Shown here one piece after another: positions 6,555-12,674 of a stretch of 52,646 bases of DNA; position 1 is the stretch's first letter, and every line of letters starts with the position of its first letter. The stretch spans positions 1 through 52,646 of the forward strand of contig JAJCXZ010000048.1 of the NCBI GenBank assembly GCA_029263175.1, in the 5' to 3' direction. Position numbers and translations under genes: made by a program. The notes beneath the pieces are model-generated. The model was not told where the DNA came from, made no database searches, and saw only the letters and a program-made list of their open reading frames with translations. Origin of the DNA: Acidimicrobiales bacterium. GTDB lineage: Bacteria; Actinomycetota; Acidimicrobiia; Acidimicrobiales; Aldehydirespiratoraceae.

Positions 6555-9032
6555 ATGGCGATCATTGAGGATCGACTGACAGCAGTCGACAACACGGCAA
6601 CCGCGGTCGAAGCCGCGACGAGTATGCGGGTGCGAAAGCGCAACGGCAGTCTCGAACCGGTCGACGTCAACAAGATCGTCAACGCGGTTGCCCGTGCCAC
6701 CGAAGGGCTGATGGGTGTCGACCCGATGGTCGTGTCCACCCGCACCATTGCGGCGCTCGCTGATGGCGCAACGACACAAGAGCTCGACGAGCTGTCGATC
6801 CGCACCGCGGCGGGCCTCATCGTGGAGGAGCCCAGCTACTCCAAGCTCGCTGCTCGCATGCTGTCGACCTACATCGACAAGGAAGTTCGCAATCAGAACG
6901 CTCCGTGGTTCTCGGAGTCGGTGGCGCTCGGCCACCAGATCGGTCTGATCGGTGACGAAGTCCTCGAGTTCGTCAACGCCAACGCACCCACGCTCAACGC
7001 CGCCATCAACTCCCAGCGCGACAAGAACTTCGAGTTCTTCGGCCTGCGCACCGTCTACGACCGATACCTGCTGCGTCACCCCGAGACCCGCCAGGTCATC
7101 GAGACTCCCCAGTACTTCTTCCTCCGTGTTGCCTGTGGCCTTTCCACCAACGCCGAGGAAGCCATCAAGTTCTACGACCTCATGTCGTCGTTGGCCTATC
7201 TGCCATCGTCGCCGACGCTCTTCAACTCGGGCACGACCCACCCACAGATGTCGAGCTGCTACCTGCTCGACTCCCCCGAGGACTCCCTCGAGGGCATCTA
7301 CAAGCGTTATACCGACATCGCCCGTCTTTCGAAGTTCGCCGGCGGCATCGGCGTCGCCTGGCACCGAATTCGTTCGAAGAACAGCCTGATCGTCGGCACC
7401 AACGGCCTGTCCAACGGCATCGTTCCGTGGCTCAAGACCCTCGATGCTTCTGTTGCGGCCGTCAACCAGGGTGGCCGCCGCAAGGGTGCAGCCTGCGTCT
7501 ATCTCGAGTCATGGCACGCCGACATCGAGCAGTTCCTCGAGCTGAAAGACAACACCGGCGATCACGCCCGCCGCACCCACAACATCAACCTCGCCAACTG
7601 GATCCCCGACATGTTCATGGAGCGCGTCGAGAAGGACTGGCAGTGGAGCCTCTTCGACCCGAAGAGGGTCCCTGCACTCATCGACACCTACGGCGACGAG
7701 TTCCGTGCCATCTACGAGCAGGCCGAGGCCGACGGGATCTACGAGAAGCAGGTCCCTGCCCGGCAGCTCTACCAGCGCATGATGAAGTCGCTGGCCGAGA
7801 CCGGCAATGGTTGGATGACCTTCAAGGATCCGTCCAACACGAAGTGCAACCAGACCGGCCCCGGTGCCGCTGGCGACAACAAGAACGACCGCGATCGGGT
7901 CGTGCACCTCTCCAACCTGTGCACCGAGATCCTCGAGGTCACCAGCCAGAGCGAAACCGCCGTGTGCAACCTCGGCTCGGTCAACCTCGGTGAGTTCGTC
8001 GAGACCTCCGAAGGTGTCACCGCCGTCGACTTCATCAAGCTCGGTGAGGTCGTCCGGCATGTGGTGCCCTTCCTCGACCGAGTGATCGACATCAACTACT
8101 ACCCCACCGACGAAGCGGCTGTCTCCAACGACCGCTGGCGTCCCGTGGGCCTTGGTCTGATGGGTCTGCAGGACGTCTTCTTCAAGCTCGGCGTTCCGTT
8201 CGACTCCCCCGTCGCTCGCGACGTCAGCCGTCGTATCTCCGAGGAGATCTATTTCAACGCCCTGTGGGCCTCCACCGAGCTGGCCGAGGCCAACGGTCCC
8301 CACGCCGCCTTCAAGGAGACCCGTGCTGCGGCCGGCGACCTCCAGTTCGACCTGTGGGGGGTGGAGCCGAGCGACGCTGAGCGTTGGGCTCCGCTGCGCG
8401 AGCGAATCGAGAAGCACGGCCTGCGCAACTCCCTCATGATCGCCATCGCTCCCACCGCCACGATCGCTTCGATCGCCGGTTGCTACGAGTGCATCGAGCC
8501 GCAGGTGTCCAACCTGTTCAAGCGCGAGACCCTGTCGGGTGAGTTCATGCAGATCAACCGCTACCTGGTGAAGGAACTCCAGAGCCGGGGGCTGTGGGAC
8601 GCACAGATGATCGCCGACGTGAAGAAGTCGGAGGGTTCGATCCAGGACCTCGATCGCATCCCCGACGACATCAAGGCCATCTACCGCACCGCCTGGGAAG
8701 TTCCGATGAAATGCCTGATCGAGATGGCCGCCGATCGCGGCGCCTTCATCGATCAGAGCCAGTCGCTCAACCTCTTCATGGAGTCGCCCACCATCGGCAA
8801 GCTCTCGTCGATGTACATGTACGCATGGAAGGCCGGTCTGAAGACCACGTACTACCTGCGCAGCCGTCCGGCCACCCGCATCAACAAGACCACGTCGAGC
8901 AACGACCCGACCACCTCAGGCCCTGCGCCTGACGGTCCCGGCGGTGGCGGACAACCCAAGCCGACATTCACCGACGAAGAGGCCCTGGCTTGCTCGTTGG
9001 AAAACCCTGAGCATTGCGAAGCGTGCGACTGA
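6555..9032 (+). CDS. nrdA: Ribonucleoside-diphosphate reductase, alpha subunit
   Basis: 825 residues from ATG 6555. The protein reduces ribonucleoside diphosphates to deoxyribonucleotides together with the next gene product. An N-terminal ATP-cone (about 24-110, beginning MRVRKRNGSLEPVDV) is the allosteric activity site. The catalytic barrel has the active-site cysteines C235 (MSSCYLLD) and C471 (AVCNLGSVNL), and the N-L-C-T-E motif (454-458), where C456 is the thiyl radical site and N454/E458 assist. PTATIAS-I-AGCYE-C-IEP follows near residues 635-655. A C-terminal CEAC (821-824) is the swinging redox pair that is re-reduced by thioredoxin or glutaredoxin. All key residues are present. The stop overlaps nrdB by one base (TGATG). 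Confidence 0.97.
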   Translation: MAIIEDRLTAVDNTATAVEAATSMRVRKRNGSLEPVDVNKIVNAVARATEGLMGVDPMVVSTRTIAALADGATTQELDELSIRTAAGLIVEEPSYSKLAARMLSTYIDKEVRNQNAPWFSESVALGHQIGLIGDEVLEFVNANAPTLNAAINSQRDKNFEFFGLRTVYDRYLLRHPETRQVIETPQYFFLRVACGLSTNAEEAIKFYDLMSSLAYLPSSPTLFNSGTTHPQMSSCYLLDSPEDSLEGIYKRYTDIARLSKFAGGIGVAWHRIRSKNSLIVGTNGLSNGIVPWLKTLDASVAAVNQGGRRKGAACVYLESWHADIEQFLELKDNTGDHARRTHNINLANWIPDMFMERVEKDWQWSLFDPKRVPALIDTYGDEFRAIYEQAEADGIYEKQVPARQLYQRMMKSLAETGNGWMTFKDPSNTKCNQTGPGAAGDNKNDRDRVVHLSNLCTEILEVTSQSETAVCNLGSVNLGEFVETSEGVTAVDFIKLGEVVRHVVPFLDRVIDINYYPTDEAAVSNDRWRPVGLGLMGLQDVFFKLGVPFDSPVARDVSRRISEEIYFNALWASTELAEANGPHAAFKETRAAAGDLQFDLWGVEPSDAERWAPLRERIEKHGLRNSLMIAIAPTATIASIAGCYECIEPQVSNLFKRETLSGEFMQINRYLVKELQSRGLWDAQMIADVKKSEGSIQDLDRIPDDIKAIYRTAWEVPMKCLIEMAADRGAFIDQSQSLNLFMESPTIGKLSSMYMYAWKAGLKTTYYLRSRPATRINKTTSSNDPTTSGPAPDGPGGGGQPKPTFTDEEALACSLENPEHCEACD

Positions 9033-10114
9033 TGGCACTCGCCGACGACCTCAACCTTGCGCCGACATACAACCCGGAGACGCTCGGGCATACGGCCACC
9101 CCGGCTTCTGTCCGCACCAACATCCTTGATCCGGGTTTCGACCTGACGCTGCGGCCGATGCGTTACCCGCAGTTCTTCGAGATGTACAAGGACGCCATCA
9201 AGAACACGTGGACCGTCGAGGAGATCGACTTCTCCGATGACCTAACCGACCTCGACCGCAAGCTCATGCCGGCCGAGAAGCACATGATCAGCCGCCTGGT
9301 GGCGTTCTTCGCCACCGGCGACTCGATTGTGGCCAACAACCTCGTCCTCAACCTCTACGAGCACATCAACGCTCCTGAGGCCCGGATGTACCTGTCGCGC
9401 CAGCTCTACGAGGAAGCGTTGCACGTCCAGTTCTATTTGAACCTGCTCGACAACTACATCCCTGATCAGGACGAGCGGGCCGAGGCATTCGCCGCCATCG
9501 AGAACATTCCCTCCATCAAGGCGAAAGCCGAGTTCTGCTTCACGTGGATGAGTTCGGTTGGCAGCGGGCCGTTGCAGACCAGGGAGGACCGCAAGCGGTT
9601 CCTCATGAACCTGATCTGTTTCGCCGCCTGCATCGAGGGCATGTTTTTCTATGGCGCCTTCGCCTACGTTTACTTTTTGCGCTCGAAGGGTCTGCTCAAC
9701 GGCCTGGCGGCCGGCACCAACTGGGTGTTCCGCGATGAGTCGATGCACATGAACTTCGCCTTCGAAGTGATCGAAACGGTCCGGGCCGAAGAGCCCGACC
9801 TGTTCGACGAGGACTTCGGCCATCGTGTCACCGCCATGATCGAGGATTCCGTCGAAGCCGAGTTCCAGTTCGCCGAGGATCTCCTGGGCGAAGGCGTGCC
9901 TGGCATGTCCACCGGCGACACCCGGATCTACCTTCAGTTCGTGGCCGATCAGCGCCTCCAGCAGCTTGGCCTGCCCAAGCGCTACGGCTCCAGCAACCCG
10001 TTCAGCTTCATGGAGTTGCAAGACGTACAGGAGTTGTCCAACTTCTTCGAGCGCACCGTGTCGGCCTATCAGGTCGGTGTCGAAGGCGACGTCTCGTTCG
10101 ACGAGGACTTCTAG
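9032..10114 (+). CDS. nrdB: Ribonucleoside-diphosphate reductase, beta (radical) subunit
   Basis: 360 residues from ATG 9032, which overlaps the nrdA stop; an in-frame TTG six codons upstream inside nrdA is less likely. The ferritin-like fold carries the di-metal ligands D97, E128, H131, E202, E236 and H239. Y135 follows H131 at the spacing of the E. coli radical tyrosine (E-x-x-H-x-x-x-Y), so this is a tyrosyl-radical subunit and not one of the Tyr-less class Ic/Ie types. The C-terminus (VSFDEDF) is the acidic/aromatic tail that docks onto the alpha subunit. It is co-transcribed with nrdA and followed by a strong hairpin. Confidence 0.96.
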   Translation: MALADDLNLAPTYNPETLGHTATPASVRTNILDPGFDLTLRPMRYPQFFEMYKDAIKNTWTVEEIDFSDDLTDLDRKLMPAEKHMISRLVAFFATGDSIVANNLVLNLYEHINAPEARMYLSRQLYEEALHVQFYLNLLDNYIPDQDERAEAFAAIENIPSIKAKAEFCFTWMSSVGSGPLQTREDRKRFLMNLICFAACIEGMFFYGAFAYVYFLRSKGLLNGLAAGTNWVFRDESMHMNFAFEVIETVRAEEPDLFDEDFGHRVTAMIEDSVEAEFQFAEDLLGEGVPGMSTGDTRIYLQFVADQRLQQLGLPKRYGSSNPFSFMELQDVQELSNFFERTVSAYQVGVEGDVSFDEDF

Positions 10115-11337: not shown

Positions 11338-12336
11338 TCAGTAGCCCCGCACTCCGTGATAGGGCAGACCCGCGGCCTTCGCCTCGGTGTAGAGCACCAT
11401 GAAGTTCTCGCCGAATGGGTCCCTGCCCTGAAGCGGCAAGGAGGCCCGGCGAATGGTCCAGTCATGCGGTGCGAGCTCGCCGGCGCGGTCATAGTTGCGA
11501 GCCGCACCGTCGACATCGCCTCGATGGCGGAGCTCGTTGGCGATCCGGAAGTGCAAGCGAGCGAGCTCCTCATCGGGGCTGAGATCACCCACGGCGGAAC
11601 GGATCTCATCGTCGGAGAGTTCGGTGGCGCCGGTGCGCACCCAATCACGGATGCGGTCGTGCTGCCGGTCGGAATCGATGCCCGTGAAGTCGCGGTAGGC
11701 ATCGGTGCCCGCTGCGCTCCAATTCGGGTGCACGATCCGATCGTTCTCATTGATCATCAGCACAGTCGGCACGTTGGAGATCGCGTAGAGCTCGGTGACG
11801 AGATGATCGGCATCCATCAGCACGGGGAACGAGATGCCGTCGGCAAAGCCGCGAATGGCATCGGTGTTCTCATCGATCGCGACAGCGATCACCTGAAAGT
11901 CGGTGTGACCCTCGCCGTGAAGTTCATTCTGCAGTGCCTGCCACCCGGGCAGGTCATGGGCGCAACCTCACCAGCTGGAGAAGGCGACGAGCAATCGTTT
12001 CTTGCTTCGGTGATCCGACAACGCCATGAGGTCGCCGTTGATCGTCGGGAGCGAGAAGTCGGGGGCGACGAGGTTCTGCAGTGCCGAGCGGCGGCGACTG
12101 CGCGGTGCACCCACCGCGGTGATACCCGACTCGTCGGATACCGCTGGCCGGTCGAGAAGACCAGCGACGGCAACCAGATCTATGGCGGTTTCGCGGCCCA
12201 ACGAGGCGCGATCCCGCACAGGAACACACACCTCGTCTCGGCACAGCCCTTCCGGCTTCAACGACCAACCGATCAGGGAGGGGAGCTGATCCACGGTCGC
12301 GGTCGGCGAGTCGAACAGCAAGAGGTCGGTGTCCAT
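11338..12336 (-). CDS. Predicted selenoprotein, thioredoxin-fold redoxin (Sec123, in-frame TGA)
   Basis: 332 codons from ATG 12336 to the stop at 11338, interrupted by one in-frame TGA at 11970-11968 (codon 123). Both halves are in the same frame and form one thioredoxin-like protein. An APDFSLPT entry strand and the LLVAFSSW strand end precisely at the TGA, followed by GCAHDLPGWQ, and later by the cis-Pro loop NVPTVLMI (P190). The TGA therefore falls where redoxin/TlpA relatives carry the catalytic Cys (SWCGC-type), giving a U-G-C motif. A SECIS-like hairpin starts 14 nt after the TGA. The N-terminus has C-x4-C (LCRDEVC), and the C-terminal 80 residues are helical and TPR-like. Membrane signal is absent, so it is probably cytosolic. 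The alternative is a nonsense mutation exactly at the active site, which is less likely. Confidence 0.8.
11937..11953 (-). promoter_or_regulatory. Bacterial SECIS-like element
   Basis: On the minus strand, CCTGCC (11953-11948) pairs with GGCAGG (11942-11937) around the loop CGGGT. The loop begins 20 nt after the TGA codon and has G in its first two bases, as in the bacterial SECIS model (short stem, small G-containing apical loop about 16-37 nt from UGA). It overlaps coding sequence, as bacterial SECIS elements do. Confidence 0.65.
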
Positions 12337-12347
12337 AGAACGGGCTC

Positions 12348-12674
12348 TCAGTCGTTGCGGGGGAAACCCAGGTCAACCGACGAGCCGGCCGGGTCGGGCC
12401 AGCGGGAGGTGATGGCCTGGGCCTTTGTGTAGAAGCGGATTCCCTCGGGACCATACATGTGCGTGTCGCCGAGATTCCAGGCGCATTCGATGTTGTCGAG
12501 GCCACGAGCAACCTCGCCGAGGGCATCGGCGATGTCGACCTCCTCAACGGAGGCAAACACCATGCTGCCGGTCTGCTGGCCGGTGGTCGGGGTGTTGACC
12601 ACACCAGTGTTGCCAGAACTGCCGGCGACGGCCTGGCCGTTGATGAAGTGTCCGAGTTGGGTGATTTCGCTCAT
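12348..12674 (-). pseudogene. mmsA: Internally deleted methylmalonate-semialdehyde dehydrogenase remnant
   Basis: 108 residues remain in frame from ATG 12674, against about 500 in intact MmsA. The first about 48 residues (GHFINGQAV...GNTGVVNTPTTG) are the MmsA N-terminus. Residues about 48-68 (ALGEVARGLDNIECAWN) resemble the GE-x-RG-x-E-VEFACN helix of the NAD-binding domain. The last about 40 residues (GDTHMYGPEGIRFYTKAQ then TSRWPDP and DLGFPRND) are the MmsA C-terminus. The cofactor-binding core and catalytic Cys are missing, so it cannot be a dehydrogenase. The frame is intact, suggesting either recent in-frame deletions or retention of a short product. It lies 11 nt upstream of the selenoprotein start. 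Confidence 0.75.

Follow-up and report, generated by a model that had tools for sequence, protein, structure and literature searches.

The minus strand of the window, by which we mean the whole analysed stretch of 52,646 nucleotides (contig C48 of a source genome of 4.40 Mb in 111 contigs), carries a thioredoxin-fold reading frame interrupted by a TGA at its active-site position, which raises the question whether this triplet is a stop, an error or a codon for selenocysteine (Sec). The frame begins with ATG at 12336, ends with the stop TGA at 11340-11338 and is open except for codon 123; when the TGA at this codon is taken as a residue, a product of 332 residues with one internal TGA is obtained, and when it is taken as a stop, the gene falls into two ORFs of 122 and 184 codons. 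The first-pass annotation had reported a single TGA interrupting an otherwise open frame between 12336 and 11338, and its coordinates proved correct on direct reading. The site reads LLVAFSSW-U-GCAHDLPGWQ, and the fold elements named in that annotation were all located in the product, namely the U-G-C motif after the AFSSW strand (W-U-G-C, residues 122-125), the APDFSLP strand (residues 91-97) and the cis-proline motif N-V-P-T (residues 188-191). The coding features of the site are as follows.

11338..12336, minus strand: predicted selenoprotein gene of 332 codons with a single in-frame TGA (frame reading and homologue codons)
11968..11970, minus strand: TGA very probably read as selenocysteine, residue 123, at the N-terminal active-site position (78 TGA and 26 Cys codons in 104 distinct homologues)
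11962..11964, minus strand: codon of Cys125, which presumably acts together with Sec in the U-G-C motif (all 104 homologues have Cys here)

Codon 123 among homologues

Homologous loci were obtained by family, protein and profile searches, and reading was continued through TGA; from the profile search of 395 genomes, the DNA of 50 matches was used (30 + 20 loci). One gene per locus was counted, so that five Frankia loci did not contribute their second copies, all of the Cys form, and 16 loci that duplicate another one around the site (6 + 10) were removed before the count, which also omits L067 and L068, members of another family, and L077, a locus without the site. Codon 123 of the 104 distinct homologues thus aligned, 16 of them from named records, is TGA in 78, TGC in 21 and TGT in 5, with no other codon, i.e., a Sec or Cys codon is present in every homologue; C-G-C is found in all 26 Cys homologues. 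As judged from these codons, the split of 78 TGA to 26 Cys excludes a chance origin of the TGA. The ten nearest named relatives (59-84% identity) come from metagenome-assembled genomes (MAGs) labelled Acidimicrobiaceae, Acidimicrobiales or Actinomycetota, which places the source genome in this group, near Acidimicrobiales; further named Sec forms belong, by MAG label, to a Chloroflexi MAG, a "Rhizobium" MAG and a proteobacterial MAG, and the named Cys forms (W-C-G-C) to Nocardioides, Frankia and Gordonia. A quick tree of 100 of the 104 sequences (those of at least 300 residues), in which long branches meet and the direction of change is not given, requires at least 8 exchanges between Sec and Cys, five of them forced by well-supported branches.

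The part of the gene downstream of the TGA is under purifying selection and thus kept as protein, since its dN/dS is low, 0.05 against L058 and 0.07 against L048, the two nearest relatives compared; before the TGA the respective values are 0.21 and 0.10, all four being rough at a dS of already 1.1-1.8. Against six more distant relatives, the ratio for the part downstream of the TGA could be computed for five, with values of 0.14-0.36, but not for the sixth. A mistake in sequencing or assembly, or decay of the gene, in which case the TGA would be a genuine stop or a TGC/TGT called wrongly and the half beyond it would be dead, would fit the mechanical split into two ORFs and the adjacent methylmalonate-semialdehyde dehydrogenase-like (mmsA-like) gene, which is truly a remnant, but deserves practically no credence, being refuted by the recurrence of TGA at the identical position in 78 distinct homologues and by the selection that persists beyond it (0.05-0.07 against the two nearest relatives compared).

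Several further TGA-containing genes were encountered in these searches. One genome (G040) has five members of the UGC family, on contigs C140, C156, C164, C176 and C193, each with an in-frame TGA, the member on C176 being listed in two pieces. The source genome itself contains two TlpA-like genes, L067 (G000:C32:67207-67569) and L068 (G000:C26:188971-189339), with an in-frame TGA at H-T-Y-U-A-A-C, which are probably U-x-x-C selenoproteins. A plasmid search matched 41 records, none over 80% of the query, and the 20 matches listed of these 41 are annotated mostly as ResA/TlpA/redoxin proteins.

Recoding signal and selenocysteine machinery

A 6-bp hairpin with the loop CGGGT, beginning 14 nt after the TGA, had been noted in the first pass as lying where bacterial SECIS elements are placed. 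The hairpin itself was confirmed by direct reading, its stem being CCTGCC/GGCAGG and its start lying 14 nt past the TGA.

11937..11953, minus strand: SECIS-type stem-loop (stem 11953-11948 with 11942-11937, loop 11947-11943)

Folded alone (46 nt), it is no better than shuffled sequences (z = +0.52; of 200 shuffles, 143 equal or surpass it), and single-sequence folding was consequently rejected as proof of a SECIS element; because the lone hairpin is not significant, a comparison across homologues was needed. All 78 Sec genes keep the inner 5-bp stem, with G-U pairs counted, as against 9 of the 26 Cys genes (Fisher p = 2e-13, not corrected for relatedness), and all six pairs are present in 60 of the Sec genes. 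An independent-pairs test of Sec against stem integrity on the tree never pointed in the wrong direction but, with too few pairs, was not significant (median p 0.5). Since the hairpin overlaps the conserved L-P-G/V-W-Q motif, part of its conservation follows from the protein, and it is the synonymous sites that decide. The stem Leu codon must end in G, because this G pairs with the C that opens the Gln codon, and it does so in all 78 Sec genes (75 CTG, 3 TTG) and in 14 of the 26 Cys genes; at 27 other Leu columns G-ending codons amount to 665 of 1424 (47%), reaching 73% in the highest column. Two of the three TTG genes have CAA rather than CAG as the Gln codon, which makes a compensatory U-A pair, and the third retains a U-G pair in the stem. 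The loops are similarly restricted, with four sequences only in the 78 Sec genes (CGGGT 42, GGTCT 16, CGTGT 13, AGGTT 7) as against 12 sequences among the 26 Cys genes; none of these four, which were defined on the Sec set, occurs in the nine stem-intact Cys genes. The loop Gly codon, present in 49 Sec genes, is GGG in 42, GGT in 7 and never GGC, whereas of the 23 other Gly columns 21 use GGC most often. A more extended structure that takes in the UGA was rejected, as RNAalifold, applied to four stretches from 8 codons before to 20 codons after the UGA, found the apical 5-bp stem alone. A bacterial SECIS element is outlined in PMC1088965 as a stem-loop just downstream of the UGA with a G in its small apical loop; here the stem is present in 78 of 78 Sec genes, and each of the four loops contains a G. 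Taken together, these comparisons show that selection acts on the hairpin as RNA, and they support a recoding signal, Sec/Cys exchange and selection on the whole frame; the proposed SECIS identity, for which single-sequence folding was insufficient, is thus borne out by the homologues.

A codon preference was also seen on the other side of the site, where the Ser codon at -2 is AGT in 38 of the 70 Sec genes having Ser there, in comparison with 59 of 1211 other Ser codons of the same genes and with 1 of 26 Cys genes at -2. Its pairing with bases at +35 was only weakly associated (complementarity in 34 of 38 vs 27 of 40; Fisher p = 0.027, relatedness ignored) and was dropped.

The components required for Sec insertion were sought in the source genome, and all of them were found there: tRNA-Sec (64 bits, over the cut-off, with ARAGORN in agreement and the anticodon tca), SelB (278 bits) and SelA (386 bits), each scoring above its cut-off and the two being encoded side by side on contig C75, and SelD (355 bits; G000:C3:15979-16917). 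The SelD gene is predicted to encode a selenoprotein too, its own in-frame TGA lying in G-A-G-U-G-C-K; the UGCK of this site fits the UxxK motif that PMC13188914 gives for selenophosphate synthetase.

In a class-wide sample of 395 genomes, 116 gave a profile match at E <= 1e-30, among them 98 with the TGA form, 17 with the Cys form and one (G020) with fragments that do not span the site and which was therefore excluded from the SelA table. Of the 98 TGA genomes 94 gave SelA, whereas of the 17 Cys genomes one did (Fisher p = 5e-15, without correction for relatedness); tRNA-Sec, at E <= 1e-9, was found in none of the 17. Two of the four SelA-negative TGA genomes (G337, G239) have tRNA-Sec, the other two (G226, G404) are without it and 70-75% complete, and SelB at E <= 1e-65 is absent from all four. 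The exceptional Cys-form genome, G214, carries SelA and SelB on one contig, with no tRNA-Sec found. In the nearer sample of 61 genomes, the three that have a Cys form (G038, G058, G059) are without SelA, and three TGA genomes with SelA (G003, G008, G009) have no tRNA-Sec above 51 bits, clear ones scoring 58-70. Across genomes, as far as their sequences tell, the TGA form tracks the Sec machinery.

Reading of the UGA as tryptophan, or its unspecific readthrough, would likewise preserve the frame, as any readthrough does, but is scarcely credible with a column that contains TGA, TGC or TGT and never TGG, a terminal stop of the same gene that is itself TGA, and Sec machinery that the genome possesses and that varies together with the TGA form. 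The translation of the TGA as selenocysteine, put forward in the first pass, is supported by the machinery of the genome and by the Sec and Cys codons of the homologues. We therefore consider it very probable that UGA codon 123 is decoded as Sec by SelA, SelB, SelC and SelD, directed by the stem-loop, in what is probably a cytosolic thioredoxin-fold oxidoreductase.

Domains, probable function and gene neighbourhood

Three parts were distinguished in the product, and a structure model built with 22 sequences (pLDDT 92.9, pTM 0.90) comprises the same N-terminal domain, thioredoxin fold and C-terminal helices.

12097..12336, minus strand: N-terminal domain, residues 1-80 (neither Pfam nor the PDB gave a match)
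12226..12243, minus strand: Cys32/Cys37, a C-X4-C pair in the N-terminal domain (102 of 104 homologues have the full pair)
11629..12093, minus strand: thioredoxin-fold domain of ResA/TlpA type, residues 82-236 (Pfam, structure model, profile and fold searches)
11767..11769, minus strand: codon of the cis-proline in NVPT, Pro190 (all 26 Cys forms and 77 of the 78 Sec forms have Pro; one Sec form has a gap)
11374..11613, minus strand: C-terminal helices, TPR-like, residues 242-321 (Pfam, model, PDB profile search)

The central domain matches PF00578 at 37.8 bits (cut-off 26), and both profile and fold searches ranked ResA, TlpA and DsbE-type proteins first, with 1st9, 3kcm and 3gl3 as the best PDB matches; VIA-align gave Z values up to 16.3 at rmsd 2.2 over 138 residues. 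The fold is therefore closer to ResA/TlpA than to a peroxiredoxin. For the C-terminal helices, TPR chains are among the matches of the PDB profile search, and Pfam TPR_2 (residues 259-292) scores 20 bits, below its cut-off of 27. For the N-terminal domain, a Pfam search with 21 members gave nothing better than E = 0.18, and among PDB folds nothing was better than E = 0.66, which is no evidence for a new fold. In NCBIfam it matched a single model at E below 0.006, NF041054, with 21 of 21 members, and all 51 matches of the domain in the 61 genomes, some of them short fragments, lie, on comparison by eye, at places of NF041054 matches; as far as tested on these sequences, the domain appears family-specific. 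Just four alignment columns have Cys or Sec in over 20 of the 104 sequences, namely C32, C37, U/C123 and C125. The two homologues without the full Cys pair are L064, which has a gap at Cys32, and L091, which begins at a contig end. As Cys125 stands two residues past Sec123, the motif is U-x-C and not U-x-x-C.

Considering this fold and motif, the enzyme is most likely a cytosolic selenol-based thiol-disulfide reductase or a related peroxidase. The selenolate of Sec123, at the position of the ResA/TlpA nucleophile, would attack a disulfide or peroxide substrate, and Cys125 would resolve the intermediate as a selenenylsulfide across the one-residue gap, U-G-C replacing C-x-x-C. The C-terminal helices may bind a partner, and Cys32/Cys37 would either relay electrons to the selenenylsulfide or hold the N-terminal domain together. 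A two-centre selenoenzyme, in which the CX4C domain serves as the built-in reductant of the Sec123-Cys125 selenenylsulfide within one cytosolic polypeptide, is a tentative proposal that we hold to be possible but rather doubtful; if true, a single cytosolic polypeptide would hold the selenium catalyst plus its own electron relay. The U-x-C geometry and the second conserved Cys pair pose a testable enzymological question.

It is unlikely, in our estimation, that the protein acts mainly as a Sec peroxidase of peroxiredoxin/AhpC type rather than as a TlpA/ResA-type thiol-disulfide reductase. The former function is suggested by the best Pfam matches, AhpC-TSA and Redoxin, and by the name Prx-like given to the UGC family in the 2008 survey (PMC2398784); against it, proteins of ResA/TlpA type come out on top in NCBIfam, in the PDB profile search and in the fold searches, and the TxxU motif of Sec peroxiredoxins (PMC13188914) is missing, Ala or Ser standing three residues before the site in all 78 Sec forms.

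The gene neighbourhood was inspected as a possible clue to function. Genes for ribonucleotide reductase alpha and beta (by eye; window 6555-10114, plus strand) lie convergently downstream of the selenoprotein gene, and the convergent pair is present in 10 of 10 close loci, the window included and L077 omitted as too short. A conserved operon was nevertheless rejected as a clue, as distant homologues have other neighbours: by eye and with rough gene calling, no neighbour common to six distant loci (L079 of Nocardioides; L080, L084, L085, L087 and L089 of Frankia) was seen. Just upstream, a 108-codon ORF (window 12348-12674, minus strand) resembles, by eye, a methylmalonate-semialdehyde dehydrogenase that has lost about 50 and 338 codons through two internal in-frame deletions; L069 and L070 have mmsA-like copies of 498-499 residues directly upstream of the selenoprotein gene.

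Relation to known families

With ResA, TlpA and CcmG the product has in common the thioredoxin fold and the cis-proline. W122 directly precedes Sec123 in the same manner as W directly precedes the nucleophilic first Cys in the ResA motif. The active site of ResA, TlpA and CcmG is C-x-x-C, whereas that of the present protein is U-x-C, and N- and C-terminal domains are added to the fold. ResA and TlpA are extracytoplasmic thiol-disulfide oxidoreductases; in the present product sequence, inspected by eye, no hydrophobic N-terminal segment was seen.

Selenoproteins with a UGC motif have been predicted before. In the Global Ocean Sampling survey of Zhang and Gladyshev (2008; PMC2398784), a 'Prx-like (UGC-containing)' family of pfam00578, with 46 Sec sequences and 855 Cys homologues, is placed among the families known from earlier work and is said to be more abundant outside marine samples, and a 'UGC-containing TlpA disulfide reductase family protein', represented by MDE0950781.1, is given in Table 1 of a 2026 review as predicted with high confidence (PMC13188914). 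For this family the review cites PMC5029168, the main text of which uses neither 'UGC-containing' nor 'TlpA'. The characteristic combination, a UGC motif in a protein of pfam00578 (2008) or cd02966 (2026), is found here as UGC at residues 123-125 and the PF00578 match, and Cys homologues exist in both cases, the likeness being one of description. The passages on the UGC families in the two papers (PMC2398784, PMC13188914) assign the family to no lineage and do not mention an N-terminal CX4C domain such as the one present here. The first-pass remark that a U-x-C redoxin is not among the familiar bacterial selenoproteins is accordingly right in that the type is unusual, but in view of these papers and of NCBIfam NF041054 it is not an unknown one. 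In the open PMC literature, 'WAxxUGC' has no occurrence, and no paper contains Acidimicrobi, selenoprotein and selenocysteine together.

The closest curated model is NF041054 (WAxxUGC_long, 'ResA-like WAxxUGC motif-containing protein'), which matches residues 7-209 with E = 5e-57, shares the U-G-C site and with its N-terminal part also covers the N-terminal domain. The product nevertheless scores 193.8 bits and does not reach the cut-off of 300; it has 332 residues as compared with 354 model positions, and its motif is F-S-S-W-U-G-C instead of WAxxUGC, 42 of the 78 Sec forms having F where the model has W. Matches over the cut-off occur in only 9 of the 61 genomes. The branch therefore scores below the curated model, and it would look like a truncated gene to callers that treat TGA as a stop.

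The present data add independent support for a selenoprotein family so far listed as predicted (PMC2398784, PMC13188914). They also provide a clean example of SECIS selection at synonymous sites, as well as a natural set of Sec/Cys exchanges following the presence or absence of Sec machinery. Assigned by motif, fold and published descriptions, the gene represents a shorter subfamily of already predicted UGC selenoproteins; what is new here is the subfamily below the NCBIfam cut-off, the codon-level SECIS evidence and the family-specific second Cys pair.
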